Shown piece by piece: positions 3,714 through 61,214 of a stretch of 64,000 nucleotides of DNA; the first letter of the stretch is position 1, and every line of letters begins with the position of its first letter. Source of the stretch: Rhodococcoides corynebacterioides (GTDB lineage Bacteria; Actinomycetota; Actinomycetes; Mycobacteriales; Mycobacteriaceae); assembly GCF_019834675.1 (NCBI RefSeq), contig NZ_JABUBU010000006.1:1-64000 (forward strand), given 5' to 3'. A program made the translations under genes and the position numbers. The notes beneath the pieces were generated by a model. The model was not told the origin of the DNA. It worked only from the letters and a program-made list of their open reading frames with translations, and ran no database searches.

Positions 3714-4061
3714 TCAGTAGACGGTGGCGGGTCGGCCGGCGTCGTCGACCACCGGAAGCTTAGCCTGCTGCCAGGCCACCATGCCGCCGTCGACGTTCAC
3801 CGCGTCGATCCCCGCGCGCTGCAGGTACTCGACGACGCGCGCCGAACGCCCGCCCTGGCGGCACACGACGTACAACTCGCCGTCGACGCTGATCTCGGCG
3901 AGTCGCGACGGGACGTCACCCATCGGAACGTGGACGGCGCCGGGGGCGTGGCCCTGCTGCCACTCGTCGTCCTCACGGACGTCGAGCAACGTGGCCTCGG
4001 CACGCTCGGGCACCTCGGCGACCGACACGGACGGAATGGACGGACCGAACCCCTGGCTCAC
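3714..4061 (-). CDS. Rhodanese-like domain protein
   Basis: A single rhodanese domain of 115 residues, presumably a cytosolic sulfurtransferase. Visible motifs: LLDVREDDEWQQGHAPGA (the conserved DVRE and GHxPGA elements) and the active-site loop VVCRQGGRSA with the catalytic Cys. The C-terminal half contains the usual VDGGMVAW. The ATG at 4061 lies only 14 bp from the left direct repeat of the genomic island, so its promoter region is island-side DNA or the repeat itself. Confidence 0.92.
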   Translation of the reverse strand: MSQGFGPSIPSVSVAEVPERAEATLLDVREDDEWQQGHAPGAVHVPMGDVPSRLAEISVDGELYVVCRQGGRSARVVEYLQRAGIDAVNVDGGMVAWQQAKLPVVDDAGRPATVY

Positions 4062-4908
4062 ACCGTCGATCCTGTCACGCCGCGCTGGGCTGTGCCACGG
4101 TCCGTCGTAGGGCCGGCCGCTGCGGCGTACGCGGTGAGCTCAAGGGTGGTGATGATGTGGTCGATGCCGTGCAGCGTCTTCCGCCGGAAGCGGTCCCCGG
4201 CCGCCCGGTCACTGTCGGCGATGGTCTGCAAGTCGTAACGTTGCGCTCGGCCGACCCACCGCACGCCGCGGGCGAGGTCGTGGCCGTCGCGTTTGTTCGA
4301 GGTGAAGAGAGCAGGCCCGGGGGCCGAGACAGGGCGTTAGTCGCCAACGCCGCCGTCTTACCCAAGCTAGGGCCGGCGACGGCGAGCAGGACGTCCTCCC
4401 AGGACATGAACACGTCCTTGCGGCCGACGACCGTGCGCCCCACCACGACTCCGATGTCGCGAGTCTCGAAATTTCGGTCGGTGACCTCGGCCAGCTCGGG
4501 CCGCAGCCGCCGCGCCTTGTCGCGGGCCTGTTTGCCGGTCACCCCTGTCAACTGCGAGGGCGAGGCCATCAGCTTGGCTCGGGCGTCGATCGACGCGCTC
4601 GGCCCGCGCCGCTGCCGCCGCAGGTACCCGACGAGGAACACCAGAGCGAGGACGGCCAGAGCGCCGAGAACCAGCAGCACTGTGGACACGGTCGGCCACA
4701 CCAGTTTCCCGGTAGCGACCTCGATAAGCGCCTGGAACGGGTTGCCGGGGGTCGATGCACCGGTGCCGGTGAGGGCGTGACCGGCGCGCAATGCGCCGTA
4801 GGCGGCGGCGACCAGAGCGATGAAGCCGAGGACGAGGGCCAACTGGATCGCCGACGCACCGCCGGAGGTTCCGGCACCCTTCGAGGTGGGGGTGCGGGTG
4901 GCGCTCAC
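4058..4908 (-). pseudogene. Frameshifted, truncated TraG/VirD4-type conjugative coupling protein
   Basis: The N-terminal part reads as an actinobacterial conjugation coupling ATPase. There are two membrane helices (about residues 20-42 and 68-95), a cytosolic linker, and then a Walker A-like loop VAGPSLGKTAALA. Shortly afterwards the frame derails. The expected continuation, FTSNKRDGHDLARGVRWVGR, is found in another frame, so a small indel lies near 4304-4312 in a CTCTCTT stretch. The shifted frame runs only to 4058, ending inside the left direct repeat, so most of the motor domain is missing. Its GTG start at 4908 overlaps the preceding gene as GTGA, typical of a conjugation operon. I read it as a dead remnant of an integrative conjugative element or plasmid. 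Confidence 0.8.
4076..4109 (+). repeat. Left direct repeat of genomic island (putative attL)
   Basis: This 34-bp stretch matches 12250-12283 with a single mismatch (T at 4086, A at 12260). The last 23 bp (4087-4109, beginning GGGCTGTGCCACGG) are identical. Sequence outside the copies is unrelated. It sits 14 bp from the rhodanese start codon. It is not a tRNA 3' end. The simplest reading is a recombination core duplicated when the island integrated. Confidence 0.7.
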
Positions 4909-5621
4909 AGCGACACCTCCTGGTCGAGGGTGGTGGCCTGTGCGAGCGCCGGGGCAGGGCGGGACGGGCCGTAGTCCGCGTCCACCGCGGGTGCGGAGAG
5001 GGCGACCGGCCCGGGGGATGCGAGCTCGGCGGTGGTGACGTCGGTACCGGGACGCACTCCGGCGACGGTGTCGGCTTGGGCGTCGGCCATCACTGCCGCT
5101 TCCTGCTCGGCGTCGACGGCGGGGTCGGAGACGAATGCATCGACGCCGGGATCGTCGACGGTCTCGAGGTCGAGTTCCTCCTGCAGCTCGTCGAGGTCGA
5201 TGCCGGCGTCCTCAAGAACCGAGTTCCAGGCATCGGCGTGCGCGATCGCGGTGGTCCAGGCGTGCATGGCCTCGCCGGTGCCCTCCGCGTTGTAGTGGGC
5301 TGTGGCGGCGGCGGACACCTCGCTGGCGATGCCGGCCCGGATCGCGGCATGCAGCAGACGATCCGAATCAAGGTCGCTCTCGCGAGCCACGTCTCGACGA
5401 GCGCGTCGGTAGGCGGCAGCGGGACGTTCGGTGCGGTGTGCGGCATCGCGGTCGGTCTCGGCGGCGCGGGCCTGTGCGAGGCGGTCACCGATGTCGCGGC
5501 GTGTCAGTGCGTCGATCGCAGCCTGCACACCGATGCGGTAGCCGACCCGAGTCAGGGTGTGGCGCTGCGCCGCCGACAAGCGGGACGAGGACGAAGGACG
5601 GTCGAGAAAGGGGAGCTTCAT
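4905..5621 (-). CDS. Unrecognised protein of a conjugation-type operon
   Basis: A 238-residue protein from the ATG at 5621 (MKLPFLDRPSSSS); the frame is open further upstream. It is rich in Ala, Asp and Glu. The middle is predicted helical (DRLAQARAAETDRDAA and following), followed by an acidic stretch (DLDELQEELDLETVDD) and an Ala/Pro-rich tail. No catalytic motif or membrane segment is visible. It overlaps the start of the coupling-protein pseudogene as GTGA, so it probably belonged to the same transfer module. I cannot name it. Confidence 0.6.
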   Translation of the reverse strand: MKLPFLDRPSSSSRLSAAQRHTLTRVGYRIGVQAAIDALTRRDIGDRLAQARAAETDRDAAHRTERPAAAYRRARRDVARESDLDSDRLLHAAIRAGIASEVSAAATAHYNAEGTGEAMHAWTTAIAHADAWNSVLEDAGIDLDELQEELDLETVDDPGVDAFVSDPAVDAEQEAAVMADAQADTVAGVRPGTDVTTAELASPGPVALSAPAVDADYGPSRPAPALAQATTLDQEVSL

Positions 5622-6042
5622 GGGACGGAGGGCCTTGTCTGGGAGCGTCGGCCAGCCCGCGACACCACACTGCACGCGCAGCCCACGATGAACCCCGTGG
5701 GCGGCGACGGTGATCGCTGCTGGGTGGACGCTCGACCGTGACCCTCATCGACGGTCGAACGATCACATCGTAACGCCGTTCGTTCTTATGTCCACGGGAG
5801 CAGCAGCCGGTGACCCGAGTATGACCGAGGTCACAGTGATTTGGTTGTCGGTTCTGTCCTTACGGATGAGGGTGACGTCGGCGGTGTAGGTGGTGTCCCA
5901 TCGAGCTCGACTAGGCGCATGGACCCTAAGCACTGTGCTTCTTGGACCGTGAGTCTTCCCGGGCGCGCCCGGGACACTGCCTGCAGGCTCCGCCGTCCAC
6001 CTCGACAGGAGCACACACCGAACGTTTGAGAGGCAGCAGTCC
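5622..6042. other. Intergenic region inside the island, with an inverted repeat
   Basis: About 420 bp without a convincing gene. It contains the inverted repeat TCGACCGT (5732-5739) / ACGGTCGA (5751-5758) with an 11-nt loop, a possible operator between two divergently transcribed genes. A minus-strand frame at 5763-6182 ends in protein-like sequence (YTADVTLIRKDRTDNQITV) but lacks a credible start. I see nothing else here. Confidence 0.4.
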
Positions 6043-6684
6043 ATGCAGTCACGCGCGATCGACTTCGCCGCAGCAGTAATTCGTTGGTCCCCACAGAACG
6101 GCACCGCCTTCACGGGTGCGGACGGCGCCCTCCTGACTTTGCTACGGAAACGCAACGTCGGGGAGGGCCCTCTGTGGGTCATTCACGAGGACGACGCGAC
6201 CATCACCGGTGCTGTGGGCCTGCTCAAGTCCCTGTCGGCCGGCGGCCGCTCGGAGGTAATGAGGAAGGGGATGTCACTCGGCCATCGCGAAGGATGTGTC
6301 GTGTTGGCGTTCCCAAGAATTGCACGCCTCTCGGAAGTCTCCCGCGGCCTGCAACCAGGCGGAACAGTGGTGGTGTTCGAGTACGGTGCCCCACCCGCGA
6401 TCGACGGTCGGATGGCGGCGACGGGCGCCTACGACTTGCGGACCGGGGAGACTACACCATTGCTTGACGAGGAATTGCGGGAAACCTTCACGTCCATGCT
6501 GATGTGGAAAAGAGAGATCGGGGAGGGTGCGAGACGTGGACGGCAGAGGCACCTCGTGCAGAGACCTCTCGCGCGAATCAAGCAGGCTGGTCTCGACGAA
6601 GACTTCGTCGTCACCTACTGTGCCGCATTGGGCCTGTACGACCAATATTTCGATCGGCTTCGCGAGCACTACAGACAAGCGTGA
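6043..6684 (+). CDS. Hypothetical protein of the island
   Basis: A 213-residue protein with an ATG at 6043 preceded by a GAGAGG ribosome-binding site. It reads as a real protein, with mixed hydrophobic and charged segments such as LLTLLRKRNVGEGPLWVIHEDD, LQPGGTVVVFEYGAPP and AALGLYDQYFDRLREHYRQA. No signal peptide, membrane helix or recognisable active site was seen. It is the only sizeable plus-strand gene upstream of the AIPR gene, 367 bp away. I do not recognise the family. Confidence 0.6.
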   Translation: MQSRAIDFAAAVIRWSPQNGTAFTGADGALLTLLRKRNVGEGPLWVIHEDDATITGAVGLLKSLSAGGRSEVMRKGMSLGHREGCVVLAFPRIARLSEVSRGLQPGGTVVVFEYGAPPAIDGRMAATGAYDLRTGETTPLLDEELRETFTSMLMWKREIGEGARRGRQRHLVQRPLARIKQAGLDEDFVVTYCAALGLYDQYFDRLREHYRQA

Positions 6685-7051
6685 ACGCCCGTCGTTCAGC
6701 GGCGTGATCCACACGCCCGGCCGACTCGTTGCCACTCAGACGCTCCTGCTCAAGTGTCCTGAACTTCGAGTTTACCGTGTGCAACCATCCGCTGAGAGTG
6801 AGCATCCGACTCCTTGAGAGAAGCAGCACCAGCAATGGGGGGGCACTGGGTTGGTCGCATGAGAGCCCACGCCCGCCGCCGAGTCCTACACCTGACGGGA
6901 CGAGAAACTTACGACTACGGATGTCTGTCTCCCGAGGCGGAACGAATGCGGTTTGCCGTGCTGACGCATCCGCGCCGTGCCCGGCTAAGGTCGCTGGGCC
7001 TGTGCTGTCAGGCATAATGCGTTGACGGGCAGGTAACCAGGAGGGAACGCT
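6685..7051. other. Intergenic region upstream of the AIPR gene
   Basis: No supported gene. Just before the AIPR start there is a possible -10 element CATAAT (7013-7018) without a good -35, and a strong ribosome-binding site AGGAGGG (7039-7045) six bases before the ATG at 7052. Confidence 0.4.
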
Positions 7052-8836
7052 ATGGCGGCGCAGGGCGGCTCAACGCAAAGTACAGCTGGATACGCAGCCT
7101 TCGAAAGCCGCGACGACCTGCAGGCTTACGGCGACAACGCACTTCTGCTCTTCGTGGCTCAGATGCGACTCGGTTTCGACGACGTAGACACTTTTGCGTC
7201 GAATAGCTTGACGGACGGCAACAACGACAAGAAGTGTGACCTCGTCGCCGTCTCCGCCGACAAACAGCGCATTGTTCTTGCTCAGGGCTACATGACTTCT
7301 AAGGTCCCGCTAGGAGCGGCGCCTGCGAACAAAGCTAGCGACTTGAACACGGGAGTTAGTTGGCTGCTGGATGGCGACCTCGACAAGCTTCCGGAAACGT
7401 TGCGCGGTGCGGCGGAGGAAGTTCGAGACGCGCTGCACGGTGGAGAAATCCGCGAACTTCAGCTATGGTACGTGCACAACTGCGTCGAATCCAGCAACGT
7501 CGGTACAGAATTGGCGCAGGCGATAAAGACGGCCAACAGGGTTATCAAAGCGACGTTCCCGGACCTCGACATCGACGTATCGGCAACTGAAATCGGTCGA
7601 AGCGCATTAGAGGATGAGTACGCACGCATGCAGGCACCCATCCTCGTTTCCGAAGAATACACCTTCAAGGTCCCTGGCGGTTTTGAATTGTCCGCTCAGG
7701 ATTGGAGCGCATTTTCGACCGCAGTAGCAGTTGCTGACTTGCGAGCCCTCTGGGCCGACCACAAGGCTAGCCTCATGTCACCGAACCTTCGAGACTATTT
7801 GGGCGTGGTCCGGTCGAGTGGAAATATAAATTTTGGAATCAAAGAGACGGCAAAAGGGCAGCCAGACAACTTTGCGATTTATAACAACGGCATCACCGTG
7901 TTGGTGAATGATTACGTGCACGTCGTCGACGACGACGGCAAGCACACTCTTCGAGTAAAGGGTGTGGGGATTGTGAACGGGGGTCAAACCACTGGGGCTT
8001 TGGGAAGCCTAGATGCAACGGAAGCCGGAACAGCCCATGGGGCCAGGGTGATGGCCCGTTTTGTCAAATGCACGAATGAGTCCGTGCTGGGAGACATTGT
8101 CAAATACAACAACACGCAGAACAAAGTAGAAGCGACTGACTTTCGTAGCAAAGATGCCGTGCAGGATAGGCTGCGAAAGGAGTTCTCGCGGATACCTGAA
8201 GCCGACTACCGAGGTGGCCGTCGAGGAGGCACGACCGACGCTATCCTCCGCATGAAGACGCTCGTTCCGGACTCGTCCGTGGCCCAGTCTCTTGCGGCCT
8301 TCCACGGCGAGCCCAACCTTGCTTATAACGAAACGCGGAGTATCTGGGACAATGACGCCGTGTATTCGTCTGTCTTTCGCGATACAGTCACCGCGTCTCA
8401 CATCGTCTACGCTTACGGTCTACTAAAGGCGATCGAAAAGACAAAGAAAGACATGCTTGCCATCCCGGAAAATTCCCGAACGCGCGCTCAGAAACAGCAC
8501 GCTGCTTATTTTAGCGCCCGGGGTTCGAACTACTTGTTAATGGCGGCGCTTGGTTCGTGCATCGAAACGGTTCTCGGTGTGGCCATCGCAGATCGATACG
8601 CACTGAGTTTCAAGAAGAATCTGTCGCCGGCGGATGCGACTAAGGCCTGGCAGCCCGTCGTGGAGTTGGCAACAGCTTTATCGTCAATGTTGTCGCCGGC
8701 AACAGACCGTGGTTTAAAGTCCCAGGATCGGGTCAGAAAAGCGATTGAAGATTTTAGTGCGATGTTAGAGGTAGCCAGGTCTGCTAATCCTGGTCCCTTC
8801 GATGCGCTGGCGGATATGACCTATACGGGCGTTTGA
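7052..8836 (+). CDS. AIPR (abortive infection phage resistance) family protein
   Basis: A 594-residue protein. The central part carries the AIPR hallmark: FAIYNNGITVLVND followed by GVGIVNGGQTTGALGSL (about residues 275-320). The N-terminal region (about residues 50-85) resembles the nuclease-like PD-(D/E)xK segment of these proteins, with TDGNNDKKCDLVAV followed by IVLAQGYMTSK. The usual QxK is here Q78-G79-Y80, so the expected catalytic Lys is missing. AIPR proteins are found in phage-defence islands; their biochemistry is poorly defined. A strong AGGAGGG site precedes the ATG. Base composition is clearly lower than in the flanking chromosome, with many A/T third positions, which supports recent transfer. 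No partner gene is adjacent, so it may act alone. Family assignment good, mechanism unknown. Confidence 0.82.
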   Translation: MAAQGGSTQSTAGYAAFESRDDLQAYGDNALLLFVAQMRLGFDDVDTFASNSLTDGNNDKKCDLVAVSADKQRIVLAQGYMTSKVPLGAAPANKASDLNTGVSWLLDGDLDKLPETLRGAAEEVRDALHGGEIRELQLWYVHNCVESSNVGTELAQAIKTANRVIKATFPDLDIDVSATEIGRSALEDEYARMQAPILVSEEYTFKVPGGFELSAQDWSAFSTAVAVADLRALWADHKASLMSPNLRDYLGVVRSSGNINFGIKETAKGQPDNFAIYNNGITVLVNDYVHVVDDDGKHTLRVKGVGIVNGGQTTGALGSLDATEAGTAHGARVMARFVKCTNESVLGDIVKYNNTQNKVEATDFRSKDAVQDRLRKEFSRIPEADYRGGRRGGTTDAILRMKTLVPDSSVAQSLAAFHGEPNLAYNETRSIWDNDAVYSSVFRDTVTASHIVYAYGLLKAIEKTKKDMLAIPENSRTRAQKQHAAYFSARGSNYLLMAALGSCIETVLGVAIADRYALSFKKNLSPADATKAWQPVVELATALSSMLSPATDRGLKSQDRVRKAIEDFSAMLEVARSANPGPFDALADMTYTGV

Positions 8837-9149
8837 CCAACGCTTGCTGCACTAGTCCGTTGTCGGCCACGCCACGAACACCGCCAGTTCGCCCCGCCGA
8901 CGGTACGGGGGCACCGTATAGGCCACGGGCGCAGGTTGCGTAGACCAATCTTCGCAGCCAGAGAGAATATTCTTCATGTCTGCCCAAAATCTCGTACCAA
9001 AGCAAAATTGCAATCAAAATTGCTAAAAACCGACGAACCACGGACGTCGGCTGCTTTCTCCAGCGCGACTCAAAATCCGGCTTGTCTGGCTCGTGTACGT
9101 CGAAAAAGAGAACGTAATCACGTCGGTGCCATGCGCAGGGATGTTGGGC
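8837..9149. other. Gene-poor gap after the AIPR gene
   Basis: About 310 bp with no supported gene. On the minus strand a frame reads protein-like sequence (VLFFDVHEPDKPDFESRWRK, then the hydrophobic FLAILIAILLWYEILG), but it opens at a TAA near 9155 and has no start until a GTG at 9041. It is possibly a relic of a small membrane protein. Confidence 0.35.
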
Positions 9150-9626
9150 TTACCTTTGGCGTCCGGTTTCGCTGTTTCGGGTCATTAACTTTTCACGCTG
9201 TCGACTAATTAGGGGTCGAGCCTTCCGTTCCCACAACAGTCCGGCGTCGCGCATTGCCTCTGCGCGTTTACTCTCAAGGGCTTGTCGACCCTTTTCTTTC
9301 CACAGCCTCTCTGCATGAGGCCTCGCCTCCACCATCAAGTCCTTGGCTACGCCTTTCACTATTTCAGCTAGGAGCATGGTGGCTTCTGCTTGGATGCCGG
9401 TTCGCAGCTTCTGGGGGGCTTCCCACTGCTGGCGGTCCTTGCCGCTTGTTTCGGCTGGCTCATCGGCAGCAGAACGCTCGGGCTCATGCTCCGGGATGAA
9501 CCTGGCACTTCCCTTGAGCCTGCCGTCGCTGTCGTAGAGGTTGTTGTGATATCCACCCTCTTTCTTGTTGCCAGGGGTGAGATTTTCGTCGTCCCACTCG
9601 AGTCGACCTGTCATGCTAGTTGTCAC
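9150..9626 (-). CDS. Hypothetical charged protein of the island
   Basis: A 158-residue hydrophilic protein beginning MTTSMTGRLEWDDENLTPGN. The N-terminal third is acidic and Gly-rich (NKKEGGYHNNLYDSDGRLKG). The C-terminal half is a long basic, probably coiled-coil, helix running from about AEATMLLAEIVKGVAKDLMV to ARPLISRQREKL. There is no membrane segment or catalytic motif. The composition looks genuine rather than a shadow of the opposite strand. I do not recognise a named family; an internal ATG at residue 5 is an alternative start. Confidence 0.6.
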   Translation of the reverse strand: MTTSMTGRLEWDDENLTPGNKKEGGYHNNLYDSDGRLKGSARFIPEHEPERSAADEPAETSGKDRQQWEAPQKLRTGIQAEATMLLAEIVKGVAKDLMVEARPHAERLWKEKGRQALESKRAEAMRDAGLLWERKARPLISRQREKLMTRNSETGRQR

Positions 9627-9743
9627 GCGACACCTCGGGCGTCAAGGCGTGCGGCGTCGTGCGCCTTGGGGGATTCATGCATTCGATTCTACTGGCGGAA
9701 CACGTCACAGCGCAGCAGTTGGTTTAGCAAGGGAGGGGCGTCC

Positions 9744-9974
9744 ATGATCCGACGCGAGATCAAGATTGAGCTGGAGTTCGAAGACACCGATGCCCATGCT
9801 GATGATCGATATGCCGACACCGCGAATGCTATCTGGATGCTCGTGAAGGCGATCGCCGAGCCCGATCGGTTCAACTTCTTTGTCGATCACGATGGGTCGA
9901 GGGCGGGCCGAGAGGTAGGCAATAACCTCAACGCTCGTTGGGACGAGTACGGGAAGAAGGCACGGTGGGGCTAA
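9744..9974 (+). CDS. Small hypothetical protein of the island
   Basis: A 76-residue protein, MIRREIKIELEFEDTDAHAD and onward. The start is chosen at the ATG 9744 because a strong GGGAGGGG site (9731-9738) lies at the right spacing; the frame itself opens earlier. It is acidic, with a plausible beta strand then helix (ANAIWMLVKAIAEPDRFNFF). No motif recognised. Confidence 0.55.
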   Translation: MIRREIKIELEFEDTDAHADDRYADTANAIWMLVKAIAEPDRFNFFVDHDGSRAGREVGNNLNARWDEYGKKARWG

Positions 9975-10216
9975 GAGTAGTGCGTGTGCAGCCTTCCTGG
10001 GGACGAGGGAAGGTCGCATGCCTGCGGTCGGGGCCGTGCCCCAATTGTCGCGCGGTTCGAAACAAGCGCGTTGCTCAGCCGGAATAATTGGTCGTGTACC
10101 AGTGGATATGTCATAATCTCTAATATCGGCAACATTTTCGTTATCCACCTGTGGGTGTATCGGCCTCGAACGGCATGGCGCACCGTGGCCGGCGTCACCG
10201 GTTTAGTCCTCGTGAG
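9975..10216. other. A+T-rich gap with a DnaA-box-like sequence
   Basis: No gene seen. The stretch 10078-10160 is noticeably A+T-rich and ends with TTATCCACC (10141-10149), one base from the DnaA-box consensus TTATNCACA, followed by TGTGGGTGT in the opposite sense. Confidence 0.4.
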
Positions 10217-10501
10217 TCACGTGTCCGTCTTCGATGCGCGTTGAGCAGCTTTCCGGGCTCTCCCTGCTTCGGTGCGCCCCTGAGGAGGACGTAGAACTCC
10301 CGCCTCCAGAACGTACTTGCGCACAGATGCGAGCGAGGTCCGGCCGATCTTTGTCAACTCGTCCCAGGTCCAGCCTTCCAGGTAGCACGCAACAAGAACC
10401 TTCCCCCGCTCAACCCGGGCAACTCTCAGCCGTTCTTCGAGTTCGACGACCTGGTCGCCCAACTCGGCGAGAGCGTCGATATTCTTTCGCGTCAGACCCA
10501 C
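10217..10501 (-). CDS. Small helix-turn-helix protein
   Basis: A 94-residue protein. The first 30 residues look like a short coiled coil (LGDQVVELEERLRVARVERG). Next comes a segment resembling a sigma region 4-type helix-turn-helix (VACYLEGWTWDELTKIG then SLASVRKYVLEAG), and a basic Arg/Lys/Ala tail. It is probably a DNA-binding protein of the mobile element. The GTG start at 10501 has no clear ribosome-binding site. A TATACC hexamer lies about eight bases upstream, so the message could be leaderless. Target unknown. Confidence 0.6.
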   Translation of the reverse strand: MGLTRKNIDALAELGDQVVELEERLRVARVERGKVLVACYLEGWTWDELTKIGRTSLASVRKYVLEAGVLRPPQGRTEAGRARKAAQRASKTDT

Positions 10502-10648
10502 CCTCTAATGGTATATCAACGCTTTAGGTGCGTGCCGTCCTGGAACGGCATAGAAGTGCTGGTCAAGCTGGTTGGGTCGCGCGGCCACATCGGCTCTCGA
10601 CCATCTTGTACATGGCATTGATGCGTAGCGCATACCGTCGTCAACGTC

Positions 10649-11640
10649 CTACACGTTATTCTCCGGGTGGTCGGAGGCGGCTTTATCCGCCGTCCGCATC
10701 CTGCGCGACTGATAGAGGTACTGCCCAATCAGCCGGATGAAGTCGTCGGTCCGTTCGTTCTCGCCAGCCAGTGCTCCGGTGAGTTTGCCGAATGCGCCCT
10801 CATCCAGCACAGCGGCGTCGGTCAGGGTCTCTCGTAGTTCCCGCGATGCCAAGAACTGGTCGACGGCGTTGTGGTCGATCTGGTCGGCGATGCGTTGATC
10901 CTCTTCGGCCAAGCCTGCGGCCGCAATGACGAAGCCGGCGATCTGCGGGTGGCGAACTCTGCGCCGAACAGCGAGTTGATTCGCGCGACGACGTCCGACA
11001 GCAATGCCTGTTGCGGGCCGGACCCGACGCCGGAAATGCCGGACAACCCCGGCGTGTCCTGATCGCCGTGGAGGCCGATGTCGGAGCTGCCCTGGTCGAC
11101 CTGGCGAACGCGGCGCAGTTCGAGCCCCGAGATCTCGGTGTCCGCTCCCGTCTGGTCGGAAGGAAGGAGTCGCACGAGCTGACGGAGGAACTCCGCCAAC
11201 TTCTCCAAATCGCTGGTGGCGTAGTCGACGACGTCGGACATGAAGTCGTACAGGCGTACGTAGGTTCAACAGTCCTCGCGGAAGGCCCGCAGCTCATCAA
11301 GGGTCTGGCTGTCCTGCTGATCCTCGGCCTCGGCCCAGCGCTGGGCGAACTCGTCGCGGGCGGGGGTCACGGCAGCCGCCAGCGCCGCGTGCGACTGTGT
11401 CGGCGTCCACCAGGCCTTTGCGTAGTGCTCGACATCTCTGGGTGTGAAGAGCCGTGCGTGGGCCAGCTTGGTTGCGAGTTGGTGTACCAGGTTTGGGTCG
11501 GTGGTCGTCTCGACATGTGCTTCGAGGAAGTACGTCAAGAACGCCTTGCGTATCTCGGCGGGATCCTTGACGAAGTCGAGCACGAAGGTGCCGTCCTTCA
11601 GTTCCCCCGACGGAGCGCGGTAGGTGCGGTTAGCTATTGC
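10649..11640 (-). pseudogene. C-terminal remnant of type I restriction endonuclease subunit HsdR
   Basis: Read across frames, the minus strand gives the C-terminal region of HsdR: NRTYRAPSGELKDGTFVLDF, TTDPNLVHQLATKL, AALAAAVTPARDEFAQRW, ELRAFREDC, then TYVRLYDFMSDVVDY and GLELRRVRQVDQG. The final part, QFLASRELRETLTDAAV to IGQYLYQSRRM, is in another frame. Two lesions are visible: an in-frame TGA at about 11266-11268 (between REDC and TYVRLYDF) and a frameshift near 10950. The nuclease and helicase domains are absent, because homology begins abruptly near 11636. No hsdM or hsdS is present. It cannot encode a working restriction enzyme. Confidence 0.8.
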
Positions 11641-11748
11641 TTTATTTTTCAGAGGCCCGAATGTCCGGGGGGCAAGGGGGTGGCGCGGCAGACCTCGGAG
11701 GCCACTGGGCTGCTCCTGCGGTAGCGCACCTAATGCCCTTTACCTCAC

Positions 11749-11768
11749 CTATGGCATCTCTGCCATAG
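11749..11768. promoter_or_regulatory. Perfect inverted repeat upstream of the ATPase relic
   Basis: CTATGGCA and TGCCATAG form a perfect 8-bp dyad around TCTC. A GATAAT hexamer (11774-11779) that could serve as a -10 follows. The arrangement suggests an operator for the ATPase-type gene that starts about 40 bp downstream. Confidence 0.4.
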
Positions 11769-11807
11769 AGGCCGATAATCGCCTGAACTGACCATAAGGA
11801 CCCCGCC

Positions 11808-12240
11808 CTGAACCCGTTCAAGCCCCGCTCCGGTCTCCGCCCACCCGCCCTGGAGGGGCGCACACGGCAACGCGAGGAGTTCGATCTGCTCGTCGCGCGC
11901 AGCATGAACCGCATCCACGACCGAGGGATGGTGTTGTCCGGGCTACGCGGGGTCGGCAAGACCACTCTGCTCAACAGTCTGGGCGAGCACGCCGAGCGTC
12001 AGGGGTGGCTCGCGATCGGCATCGAAGCGCCACCGAACGAAGCAGGTTTCGCGTCGCCCCGAGAGCACCCTTCGACGACGAGGACGCCCACATCGCCGTC
12101 GACCGACGAAGGTCGGCGCGCGCTCGACGACGGCTTCTTCCCCCCGATGGGACCGCTCCAGCGAAGCGAACGCCGCTACCTGCGCACCGTCGCCGACACC
12201 GGCGGGGGCACCGCCCGTCGGTGCGCGGCCTGCTTCATTG
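11808..12240 (+). pseudogene. Internally deleted AAA ATPase relic
   Basis: The N terminus reads NPFKPRSGLRPPALEGRTRQ, followed by a P-loop GLRGVGKTTLLNSL and GEHAERQGWLAIGIEA, matching a family of actinobacterial AAA-type ATP-binding proteins often found on mobile elements. After about residue 85 homology stops. Near 12115 a C-terminal family segment appears (ALDDGFFPPMGP then SERRYLRTVADTG), so the middle of the ATPase is missing. An in-frame TGA lies at 11784-11786, and the only start-like codon after it is CTG at 11808, which has AAGGA (11796-11800) at correct spacing. The frame runs into the right direct repeat. Confidence 0.65.
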
Positions 12241-12249
12241 GCGCGCTCG

Positions 12250-12283
12250 CACGCCGCGCAGGGCTGTGCCACGGTCCGTCGTA
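12250..12283 (+). repeat. Right direct repeat of genomic island (putative attR)
   Basis: Second copy of the 34-bp repeat at 4076-4109, with one mismatch. It marks the right edge of the island. Core chromosome resumes with a DnaA-box cluster and the LLM oxidoreductase gene. Confidence 0.7.
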
Positions 12284-12315
12284 CCTCCGACCGCACGACC
12301 GACCCGGCCGACGAG

Positions 12316-12345
12316 TTATCCACATTGTCCACAGAAAAATCCACA
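12316..12345 (+). promoter_or_regulatory. Cluster of three DnaA-box-like sequences
   Basis: TTATCCACA (12316-12324) and TTGTCCACA (12325-12333) are directly adjacent, and AAATCCACA (12337-12345) follows after three bases. The first matches the general DnaA consensus TTATNCACA, and the second is the form preferred in actinobacteria. All three point the same way. They lie between the island edge and the LLM gene, about 100 bp upstream of its start. Confidence 0.55.
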
Positions 12346-12442
12346 GAAACCGGCCTCGAACCCGTTCCGGTCCGGGTTTCGGACCGGAGAACGCGCCCCG
12401 GCATCGTGCGCCGTCCAACCCCGACGTCTCTAGAGTCGAGTC

Positions 12443-13369
12443 ATGGACCTTCGCATCTTCACCGAACCGCAGCAGGGCGCGACGTACGACGACCTCCTCC
12501 GGGTCGCCCGTGCGTCGGAAGACCTGGGTTTCGACGCGTTCTTCCGCTCCGACCACTACCTCCCGATGAACGTGGACGGCCGGCCCGGGCCCACGGACGC
12601 GTGGGTCACCCTGGCCGGACTGGCCCGCGAGACGTCGACCATCCGCCTGGGAACGCTGGTCACCTCGGCGACCTTCCGCTACCCCGGCCCCCTCGCGGTC
12701 TCGGTGGCCCAGGTCGACGCGATGAGCGGTGGCCGCGTCGAACTCGGGCTCGGCGCCGGGTGGTACGCGGAGGAGCATGCGGCGGGCGCCATCCCGTTCC
12801 CGCCGGTCGGCGAGCGGTTCGACCGCTTCGAGGACACCCTCGCCATCGTGACCGGCATGTGGGCCACGCCCGAGGGCGAGACCTTCGATCACCAGGGACA
12901 CCACTTCTCGGTCACCGGGTCGCCCGGTCTGCCGAAGCCCGTGCAGGACTCGGTGCCCATCGTCATCGGCGGCGGCGGGAAGAAGCGGACGCCGGCGCTG
13001 GCCGCGCGGTACGCCACCGAGTTCAACCTGCCCTTCGCCGACGCCGAGACCACCGCGACGCAGTTCGACCGCGTCCGGGCGGCCTGCACCGAGGCCGGGC
13101 GCGACCCGTCGTCGATGACCTTCTCCAACGCCCTCGTCCTGTGCTGCGGGTCGTCCGATGCCGAGGTGGCCCGACGGGCCGGGGCGATCGGGCGCGAGGT
13201 CGACGAGGTGACACGGAACGGGGCGGCCGGATCGCCCAGCCAGGTCGTGGACACCCTCGGCCGGTTCGCCGAACTCGGCTCGACGCGTGTCTACCTGCAG
13301 GTGCTCGACCTGCACGACCTCGACCACCTGGCACTGGTGGCCGAGCAGGTCATGCCGCAGGTGGCGTGA
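12443..13369 (+). CDS. LLM-class (luciferase-like, F420-dependent type) oxidoreductase
   Basis: A 308-residue TIM-barrel flavin-dependent oxidoreductase of the luciferase-like family. In mycolata, close relatives use the deazaflavin F420. Visible features are the N-terminal strand MDLRIFTEPQ, FRSDHYLP, IRLGTLVTS, the diagnostic SGGRVELGLGAGWY (about residues 93-106) and VPIVIGGGGKKR. The ATG at 12443 is preceded by TAGAGT (12431-12436) at leaderless spacing. The substrate is not deducible. It overlaps the convergent acyltransferase by 20 bp. Confidence 0.9.
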   Translation: MDLRIFTEPQQGATYDDLLRVARASEDLGFDAFFRSDHYLPMNVDGRPGPTDAWVTLAGLARETSTIRLGTLVTSATFRYPGPLAVSVAQVDAMSGGRVELGLGAGWYAEEHAAGAIPFPPVGERFDRFEDTLAIVTGMWATPEGETFDHQGHHFSVTGSPGLPKPVQDSVPIVIGGGGKKRTPALAARYATEFNLPFADAETTATQFDRVRAACTEAGRDPSSMTFSNALVLCCGSSDAEVARRAGAIGREVDEVTRNGAAGSPSQVVDTLGRFAELGSTRVYLQVLDLHDLDHLALVAEQVMPQVA

Positions 13370-18913: not shown

Positions 18914-19681
18914 ATGGAGATGGCAGGATCCGCAGCACTGGTCACCGGCGGCGCATCGGGACTGGGCGCCGCCACCGCGAAGCGCTTCGCCGAGAACGGG
19001 GTCACCGTCTTCGGTCTGGACCTGCAGTCCTCCATCGACAAGGCCGGCGACTCCGTGCCCGACGGCGTCACGCTGATCGCCGCCGACGTCACCAGCGACG
19101 AGGAGGTTCGCGCGGCCCTGAAGACCATCGGCGAGGCCGGGGTGCCGCTGCGCATCGTCGTCAACTGCGCCGGTGTGGGCTGGGCCGGTCGCATCCTGTC
19201 GAAGAAGGGTGCGCACGACCTCGAGCTGTTCCGCACCGTCATCACCATCAACCTGCTCGGCACGTTCAACGTCATGCGCCTGGCCGCCGAGCACATGCAG
19301 TCCCTCCCCACCGTCGACGACGCCGGTCAGCGCGGCGTGGTCATCAACACCGCGTCGGTTGCGGCGTTCGAGGGCCAGATCGGCCAGATCGCGTACTCGG
19401 CATCCAAGGGCGGCGTGCACGGCATGACCGTTCCCGCGGCGCGTGACCTCGCGCAGGTGGGCATCCGCGTGAACACCATCGCGCCCGGCATCGTCGACAC
19501 CCCGATGCTCGCCGGCGTCACCGAGGAGTACCGCCACGGCCTCGAGGCCGGCGTGCCCTTCCCGTCGCGCCTGGCCCAGCCGGCCGAATACGCACAGCTC
19601 GCGCAGATGATCGTCGAGCACGACTACCTCAACGGCGAGACCATCCGCATGGACGGTGCGCTCCGCATGGCCCCGCGCTGA
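18914..19681 (+). CDS. Short-chain dehydrogenase, HSD10 / type II 3-hydroxyacyl-CoA dehydrogenase-like
   Basis: A 255-residue Rossmann-fold dehydrogenase. The NAD motif is TGGASGLGAATA, followed by NCAGVGWAGR, the catalytic Ser in NTASVAAFEGQIGQ and Tyr/Lys in YSASKGG. The C-terminal pattern (GIRVNTIAPGIVDTPML, GVPFPSRLAQPAEYAQLAQ and LNGETIRMDGALRMAPR) matches HSD10-like enzymes that oxidise 3-hydroxyacyl-CoAs in fatty acid or isoleucine breakdown. A GAGAGGA site precedes the ATG. A long perfect hairpin follows. Confidence 0.9.
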   Translation: MEMAGSAALVTGGASGLGAATAKRFAENGVTVFGLDLQSSIDKAGDSVPDGVTLIAADVTSDEEVRAALKTIGEAGVPLRIVVNCAGVGWAGRILSKKGAHDLELFRTVITINLLGTFNVMRLAAEHMQSLPTVDDAGQRGVVINTASVAAFEGQIGQIAYSASKGGVHGMTVPAARDLAQVGIRVNTIAPGIVDTPMLAGVTEEYRHGLEAGVPFPSRLAQPAEYAQLAQMIVEHDYLNGETIRMDGALRMAPR

Positions 19682-19746
19682 CCCTCCCGAAAAGCTTTTT
19701 TCTCGCCGCCACCCATCCACGGGTGCAGTAGGCCCGAAGACACCCT

Positions 19747-61128: not shown

Positions 61129-61214
61129 TGGTGGGCGAAGGGGGACTTGAACCCCCACGTCCCGAAGGACACTGGCACCTGAAGCCAGCGCGTCTGCCAT
61201 TCCGCCACTCGCCC
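61129..61214 (-). tRNA. tRNA-Leu (anticodon CAG)
   Basis: On the minus strand the 86-nt sequence starts GGGCGAGTGGCGGAATGGCA, with a 5-bp anticodon stem CTGGC/GCCAG around the loop TTCAGGT. It has a long leucine-type variable arm (TGTCCTTCGGGACG), the T arm GGGGGTTCAAGTCCCCC, and an encoded CCA. The G-rich acceptor arm pairs fully. It decodes CUG. The same tRNA sits next to fhaA in related actinobacteria. Confidence 0.96.

Follow-up and report, generated by a model that had tools for sequence, protein, structure and literature searches.

How did a block of foreign DNA come to lie between a rhodanese gene and a divergent LLM-type gene in a Rhodococcoides chromosome, framed by two nearly identical 34-bp direct repeats? 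The block, hereafter the island, lies within the window, by which we mean the whole 64-kb stretch analyzed here, on contig C40 of genome G000 (4.02 Mb), and we compared it with a set of 37 genus genomes, its own included; throughout, G numbers denote genomes and C numbers the contigs of the genome named (feature coordinates are collected in Table 1). Matching repeats around foreign DNA are usually read as the attachment sites of a lost integrase, and a sequence-only reading of the window had taken them for the ends of a mobile element moved by a recombination system that it could not name. Comparison with the genus did not support that interpretation as it stood, as the repeat core is native to the host locus and the left end of the insert is intragenic. 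We favor instead, at roughly even odds (about 0.5), an illegitimate insertion of conjugative-element DNA that would have duplicated its target in an ancestor shared with R. kroppenstedtii, then decayed and been lost again in the lineage of G001 (Rhodococcoides corynebacterioides NBRC 14404). The island is ordinary in kind, mostly decayed, and real; a narrow literature search on Rhodococcus corynebacterioides genomic islands met no earlier description of it.

The boundaries are sharply defined. The two repeat copies are identical at 33 of 34 positions, as the sequence-only reading had stated, and chance would yield only about 3e-10 such pairs over 11 kb with the same base composition. With up to three mismatches allowed, the repeat occurs at these two sites alone in the whole of G000, so that copies scattered through the genome can be rejected, and nowhere in the remaining 36 genomes of the genus. 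A search with its 18-bp right part and a limit of two mismatches added one genomic place, on C3, with two mismatches. Searches against plasmids returned three weak matches only (E 0.3–0.9) and those against phages none, the exact 23-mer of the repeat is absent from genome-contig and viral-contig collections, which may omit close kin of G000; apart from the weak plasmid matches, these searches did not find the repeat on other mobile elements. Between the copies, the guanine-plus-cytosine (GC) content is 54–60% in 1-kb windows from ~6.5 to 11 kb, against 72–74% in the left flank and 66–72% in the right flank, out to 20 kb, which agrees with the unlike composition noticed earlier. Two further points of the sequence-only reading, that the island lacks an integrase and that the repeat is not a tRNA end, also stand: Pfam searches of 10 island frames revealed no integrase family, a six-frame search of the genome placed all four Phage_integrase genes (C12, C43, C39 and C40:119698) and the one Recombinase gene (C8) outside the island, and the single tRNA gene of the window is found at 61129–61214, nowhere near the island, so that a tRNA as insertion target can be rejected. 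As a separate observation, the gene at C40:119698-120177 encodes a 388-amino-acid (aa) phage-type tyrosine integrase on the window’s own contig, ~107 kb from the island; it is preceded by a small frame that looks helix-turn-helix-like by eye, and its att sites were not found.

Comparison of the host locus across the genus reveals what the site looks like without its insert. The right flank (12284–13369) has a DNA match in all 37 genomes and the rhodanese gene in 33, G000 being counted in both; of the latter, 31 carry both flanks on one contig, G000 has them 8 kb apart, and G004 (R. kroppenstedtii DSM 44908) carries each on a contig of its own. Only 34 bp separate the two flanks in G001, between the left-flank end at 19661 and the right-flank start at 19696, and they are one diverged copy of the repeat, which retains GTGCCACGGTCCGTCG. 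When the window’s flanks are joined without the island, they align straight across the G001 site with 177 of 201 columns identical. G001 carries the empty site, the rhodanese/LLM pair without the segment: the single-copy locus that had been proposed as a check is found in a relative, and the divergent gene pair predicted for a site without the segment exists there.

The same comparison identifies the owner of the repeat. All 30 rhodanese loci read, namely those obtained from the 33 rhodanese-matched genomes, carry an element of the form TGTCACG-N13/14-TGCCAC upstream of the gene, and 28 of these loci are without this island; a pattern of this type occurs in 0.3% of shuffled loci. The left repeat copy is the host’s own sequence and the right copy repeats it. 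We infer that the element is probably a promoter or operator.

Immediately inside the left repeat the insert begins in the middle of a gene. The conjugative coupling-protein fragment found there is 90.4% identical at the DNA level, over 802 columns, to an intact gene on contig C39 of the same genome, which encodes a 638-aa protein with TraG-D_C and T4SS-DNA_transf domains and belongs to an integrative and conjugative element (ICE); the homology begins at window position 4111, which is codon 267 of the intact gene and flush with the inner edge of the repeat. What stands beside the left repeat is not a natural element end but a point inside the coupling-protein gene, and the right end is likely to be of the same arbitrary, intragenic kind: homology of the last island gene, an AAA-ATPase remnant, to a gene in G018 ends at 12214, 36 bp short of the right repeat, and those 36 bp, of unclear origin, are also present in G004. 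A habitual cut site in coupling-protein genes is rejected, as truncated copies in G015 and G024 stop elsewhere, at residues 192 and 208. Furthermore, the motif CCGRCCGC is common to the coupling-protein gene just inside the left copy and, in register, to the chromosome beyond the right copy; this candidate left-join microhomology amounts to 7 of 8 positions in the window (chance 0.004, tested after being seen and for the left join only) and to 10 of 10 in G004 (chance 2.5e-5, the match read by eye and likewise tested after being seen).

G004 provides a second occupied site, which resembles the window’s island in its place, its left join, its right arm and the repeats at both ends. Its rhodanese side, on contig C13, runs into DNA that matches window positions 4110–5760 (86.5%, 1653 columns), with the junction between coupling-protein gene and repeat at the same position as the window’s within a few bases, and its LLM side, on contig C9, matches the window from 12205 outward; the two contigs are unjoined in the assembly, so that the middle is unassembled, and we treat them as one island by assumption. 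By eye, the two G004 repeat copies are further diverged from each other than the window’s pair. The islands differ in their filling, as the G004 interior has no DNA-level match to that of the window and carries other cargo in two defence-like stretches (C13:1-4500 and C9:1-4735): an ApeA N-terminal domain (5e-16), a Schlafen AlbA_2 domain (1e-10), DUF6338 (2e-28), a restriction-subunit remnant with a type I R-subunit domain (2e-11), and a double-GTPase match that falls under its cut-off. The whole region in ancestral order, which would have spoken against a mobile origin, was not seen in relatives, G004 having both repeats around a different interior. It is the empty site, the second occupied site and, elsewhere in G000, an intact counterpart of the truncated gene that, taken together, suggested a host-owned repeat and an intragenic insert end.

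To place these events in time, we examined the phylogeny around the site and the divergence of the arms. A tree of nine segments near the site (6293 columns) groups G000 with G001 at 97% support, and shared derived sites number 47 for G000 and G001, 15 for G000 and G004, and 19 for G001 and G004; because the tree pairs G000 with G001, the island is present in G000 and G004 yet missing from the sister of G000. Between G000 and G004, the coupling-protein arm has its differences spread almost evenly, at 31, 29 and 43 sites at codon positions 1, 2 and 3 (264, 260 and 263 sites compared), and the gene upstream of it differs at 15, 27 and 31 (246 sites each), whereas the host genes show 4, 5 and 49 differences in the LLM gene and 8, 0 and 53 in the frame at 104–1003. 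Overall divergence is 13% in the coupling-protein part and 10% in the upstream gene, compared with third-position divergences of 14–18% in four host genes and 9% in a fifth, and 17% in one intergenic stretch. This pattern fits one ancestral insertion followed by mostly neutral decay and by a clean loss in the G001 lineage. A later transfer is conceivable, because the arms are slightly less diverged than the host.

We propose that no dedicated integrase took part: DNA of a conjugative plasmid or ICE would have been joined to the chromosome ahead of the rhodanese gene when a break was repaired, whether by end-joining or under the guidance of microhomology. Overlapping joins could then leave ~34 bp (up to ~45) of host rhodanese-upstream sequence on both sides: with the left join at the microhomology and the other end joined 34–45 bp upstream, a direct repeat of host sequence would result. 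The insertion would have occurred in the common ancestor of the window’s species and R. kroppenstedtii, interior decay and turnover would then have gone separate ways in the G000 and G004 lineages, and a clean deletion in the G001 lineage would have removed the insert, probably where the two short repeats recombined or slippage occurred between them. We infer the joining mechanism, the single origin and the loss alike. In favor of this, the island holds neither an integrase nor a serine recombinase gene, a Ku gene is present in G000, and illegitimate integration has been reported in Rhodococcus (PMC12169178). Target duplication at an illegitimate join fits better than an attL/attR pair, because the repeat core is native and the insert ends inside a gene at the left copy.

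Several observations weigh against this illegitimate insertion in a common ancestor. The window’s two copies differ at 1 of 34 positions, whereas copies of the inferred age should differ at ~5.4 (P ~0.03), and by eye two repeat positions agree within each genome and differ between genomes, which suggests either conversion between the copies or later separate insertions. In the upstream gene the differences are spread less evenly over codon positions (15/27/31), and the reading frame has stayed open. Moreover, the G000 arm is at least as near C39 (89–90%) as it is to G004 (86.5%), so that a single origin is not forced. It is easier to imagine an interior being exchanged while its ends stay fixed if the site is an active hotspot, but the differing interiors could also be two remains of one larger ancestral island. 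Finally, at the single mismatch between the copies, both genomes have T in the left copy and A in the right, a difference that site-specific recombination would leave as well.

This last point counts in favor of the main rival, an integrase-borne island related to an ICE or an integrative and mobilizable element, which would have entered an attB outside any tRNA gene, ahead of the rhodanese gene, and whose integrase would since have been lost or would have acted in trans, the two copies being attL and attR. Direct repeats around foreign DNA with a clean empty site, two islands of different filling between the same ends, and the presence in G000 of a true integrase-borne ICE at tRNA-Thr all agree with this possibility, along with the consistency of the T/A difference, read by eye. 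We nevertheless consider it unlikely, if the best of the alternatives: with the left end internal to the coupling-protein gene, a later deletion would have had to stop exactly at the repeat, and no repeat copy was found on plasmids or phages beyond the weak matches, in the other 36 genus genomes (up to three mismatches) or, as an exact 23-mer, in the genome and viral contig collections. The 13-bp repeat core is missing from C39:40000–139999, and the C39 ICE can be rejected as its carrier. That G000 and G004 acquired related conjugative DNA in separate insertions at a weak hotspot, each with a local duplication of host sequence, while G001 was never occupied, would account for interiors without a DNA match and for repeat positions that agree within a genome (by eye), and would need no loss in the sister of G000; the shared coupling-protein cut point and the right arm would, in turn, need to arise twice, and we hold this scenario to be improbable. 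Similarly improbable is a defence-island site in this actinobacterial genus at which a short duplicated promoter-like host element lets inserts be gained, exchanged and cleanly lost by end-joining and repeat recombination without any site-specific recombinase. The least probable is a recombinase-less island that is still mobile, leaves by short-repeat recombination with host functions and may reinsert; there is precedent for it in the H47 island of E. coli (PMC5426353), and repeats, an empty site and no recombinase are all on record here, but the ends are decayed gene fragments, and there is neither a copy at a second locus nor any sign of reinsertion.

What can be recognized of a transfer system in the island is confined to the 5′ coupling-protein fragment and the preceding gene, rather than the relaxase and full transfer genes of an ICE. 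That preceding gene gave no match in Pfam or NCBIfam, which together with PADLOC served for the family searches of island frames. The 36-bp element that closes the left arm on its inner side recurs in full at C39:104681-104716 and within the C39 match at 83149, and 35 bp of it are identical on the Rhodococcus fascians plasmid NZ_CP140265.1; transfer-type operons follow it, and it may serve as an operator or an origin of transfer. The chromosome of G012 also holds pieces of a gene from the island’s coupling-protein family (C1:2286710-2287077), ~30 kb from the rhodanese-LLM site.

Table 1. Features of the island and its host flanks in the window
Feature	Position	Strand	Basis or remark
Rhodanese gene, left host flank	3714..4061	-	DNA match in 33/37 genus genomes, own included
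Host element TGTCACG-N13-TGCCAC upstream of rhodanese gene	4073..4097		Covers most of left repeat copy
Left 34-bp repeat copy	4076..4109	+	33/34 match to right copy
5′ part of conjugative coupling-protein (VirD4/TraG-type) gene, ending at ~codon 267/638 right at repeat	4110..4908	-	C39 match
Gene upstream of coupling-protein gene, open frame of 256 aa	4905..5675	-	Matches C39 and G004
36-bp element with inverted repeat, inner edge of left arm	5725..5760		C39 and plasmid matches
Open frame, 213 aa	6043..6684	+	No family assigned
AIPR-family (abortive-infection type) gene, uninterrupted, 594 aa	7052..8836	+	Pfam AIPR 2e-29; PADLOC AbiU 3e-23
Probable remnant of type I restriction R-subunit gene, possibly reaching down to 10649	11269..11739	-	33% identity to G004 frame
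AAA-ATPase gene, internally deleted, 3′ end missing	11788..12214	+	Two-piece DNA match to G018 gene
Right arm in common with G004 island	12205..12249		DNA match to G004
Right 34-bp repeat copy	12250..12283	+	33/34 match to left copy
LLM-type gene (name from earlier reading of the sequence), right host flank	12443..13369	+	Flank match

The remaining cargo is a mixture of remnants and one well-preserved gene. The sequence-only reading had described it as conjugation and phage-defence debris, which is apt for the conjugation genes and the AAA-ATPase remnant and fails for the AIPR gene, whose frame is open throughout. The AIPR product scores far under the cut-off for NCBIfam MzaE; its relatives occur in 5 of the 36 other genus genomes (41% in G036 and 23–30% in four) and on an Arthrobacter plasmid (58%), and to judge from its family the gene may still act against phages. 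The frame at 6043–6684 had zero matches in Pfam, NCBIfam and PADLOC. The stretch at 11269–11739, itself without a Pfam or PADLOC family match, is a probable restriction R-subunit remnant by its resemblance to a G004 frame that carries Pfam T1R_D3-like. The N-terminal part of the AAA-ATPase shares 81–83% amino acid identity with frames in G002, G007, G017, G018 and G026, and these have a coupling-protein gene of the island’s family ~4–6 kb away in G018 and G026, but not in G002, G007 and G017.

The host locus varies in other ways as well. In G010 and G030 the rhodanese and LLM genes are ~1.8 and ~3.0 kb apart, and the DNA between them is unrelated to the island, with no match to its interior and no repeat copy within three mismatches; by eye, we take this extra DNA for ordinary genes. 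In G011, G012 and G016 the rhodanese-upstream element is separated from the LLM gene by ~0.5 kb of additional DNA, which looks by eye like a small gene and is not in G001. Past the right repeat and ahead of the LLM gene, TTATCCACA and TTGTCCACA are adjacent at 12316–12333, the only matches to TT[AG]TCCACA on either strand of the window; they resemble DnaA boxes. G001 also has TTATCCACA at its site, and short matches to the 12316–12333 stretch recur in many genus genomes.

On a small scale, the island illustrates how conjugative debris can retain an open defence gene, and it suggests caution in island calling, as illegitimate joining can leave the same signature as the att sites of a lost integrase. 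Among the known systems closest to the island is the ICE on C39, whose coupling-protein region is 89–90% identical in DNA to the island’s left arm. That element spans ~76 kb between 45-bp direct repeats (C39:56590-56634 and 132581-132625), one of the two being within a tRNA-Thr gene, and has a 430-aa tyrosine integrase beside the repeat, a TrwC-type relaxase and a coupling protein; integrase, relaxase, 45-bp repeats and tRNA site are all missing from the island. A diverged partial copy of the coupling-protein 5′ end (84013–84480) stands in tandem before the intact gene of the ICE. With the illegitimate integration described in Rhodococcus, the island shares the joining of foreign DNA to the chromosome, for which the passages of that work drawn on here report neither site nor sequence specificity; the events described there involve laboratory plasmid fragments, unlike the island, and the same passages mention neither duplication nor microhomology (PMC12169178). 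The E. coli H47 island, which has served to study how short direct repeats bring about deletion in the absence of a known recombinase, differs, in the parts of that study drawn on here, in that its repeats are 144–148 bp long with four short homologous blocks, compared with 34 bp here, and in that its excision was seen by polymerase chain reaction, whereas that of the island, whose ends are cut genes, is deduced from a sister species; what the two have in common is a foreign segment between short imperfect direct repeats that has no recombinase of its own and whose deletion leaves an empty site (PMC5426353).

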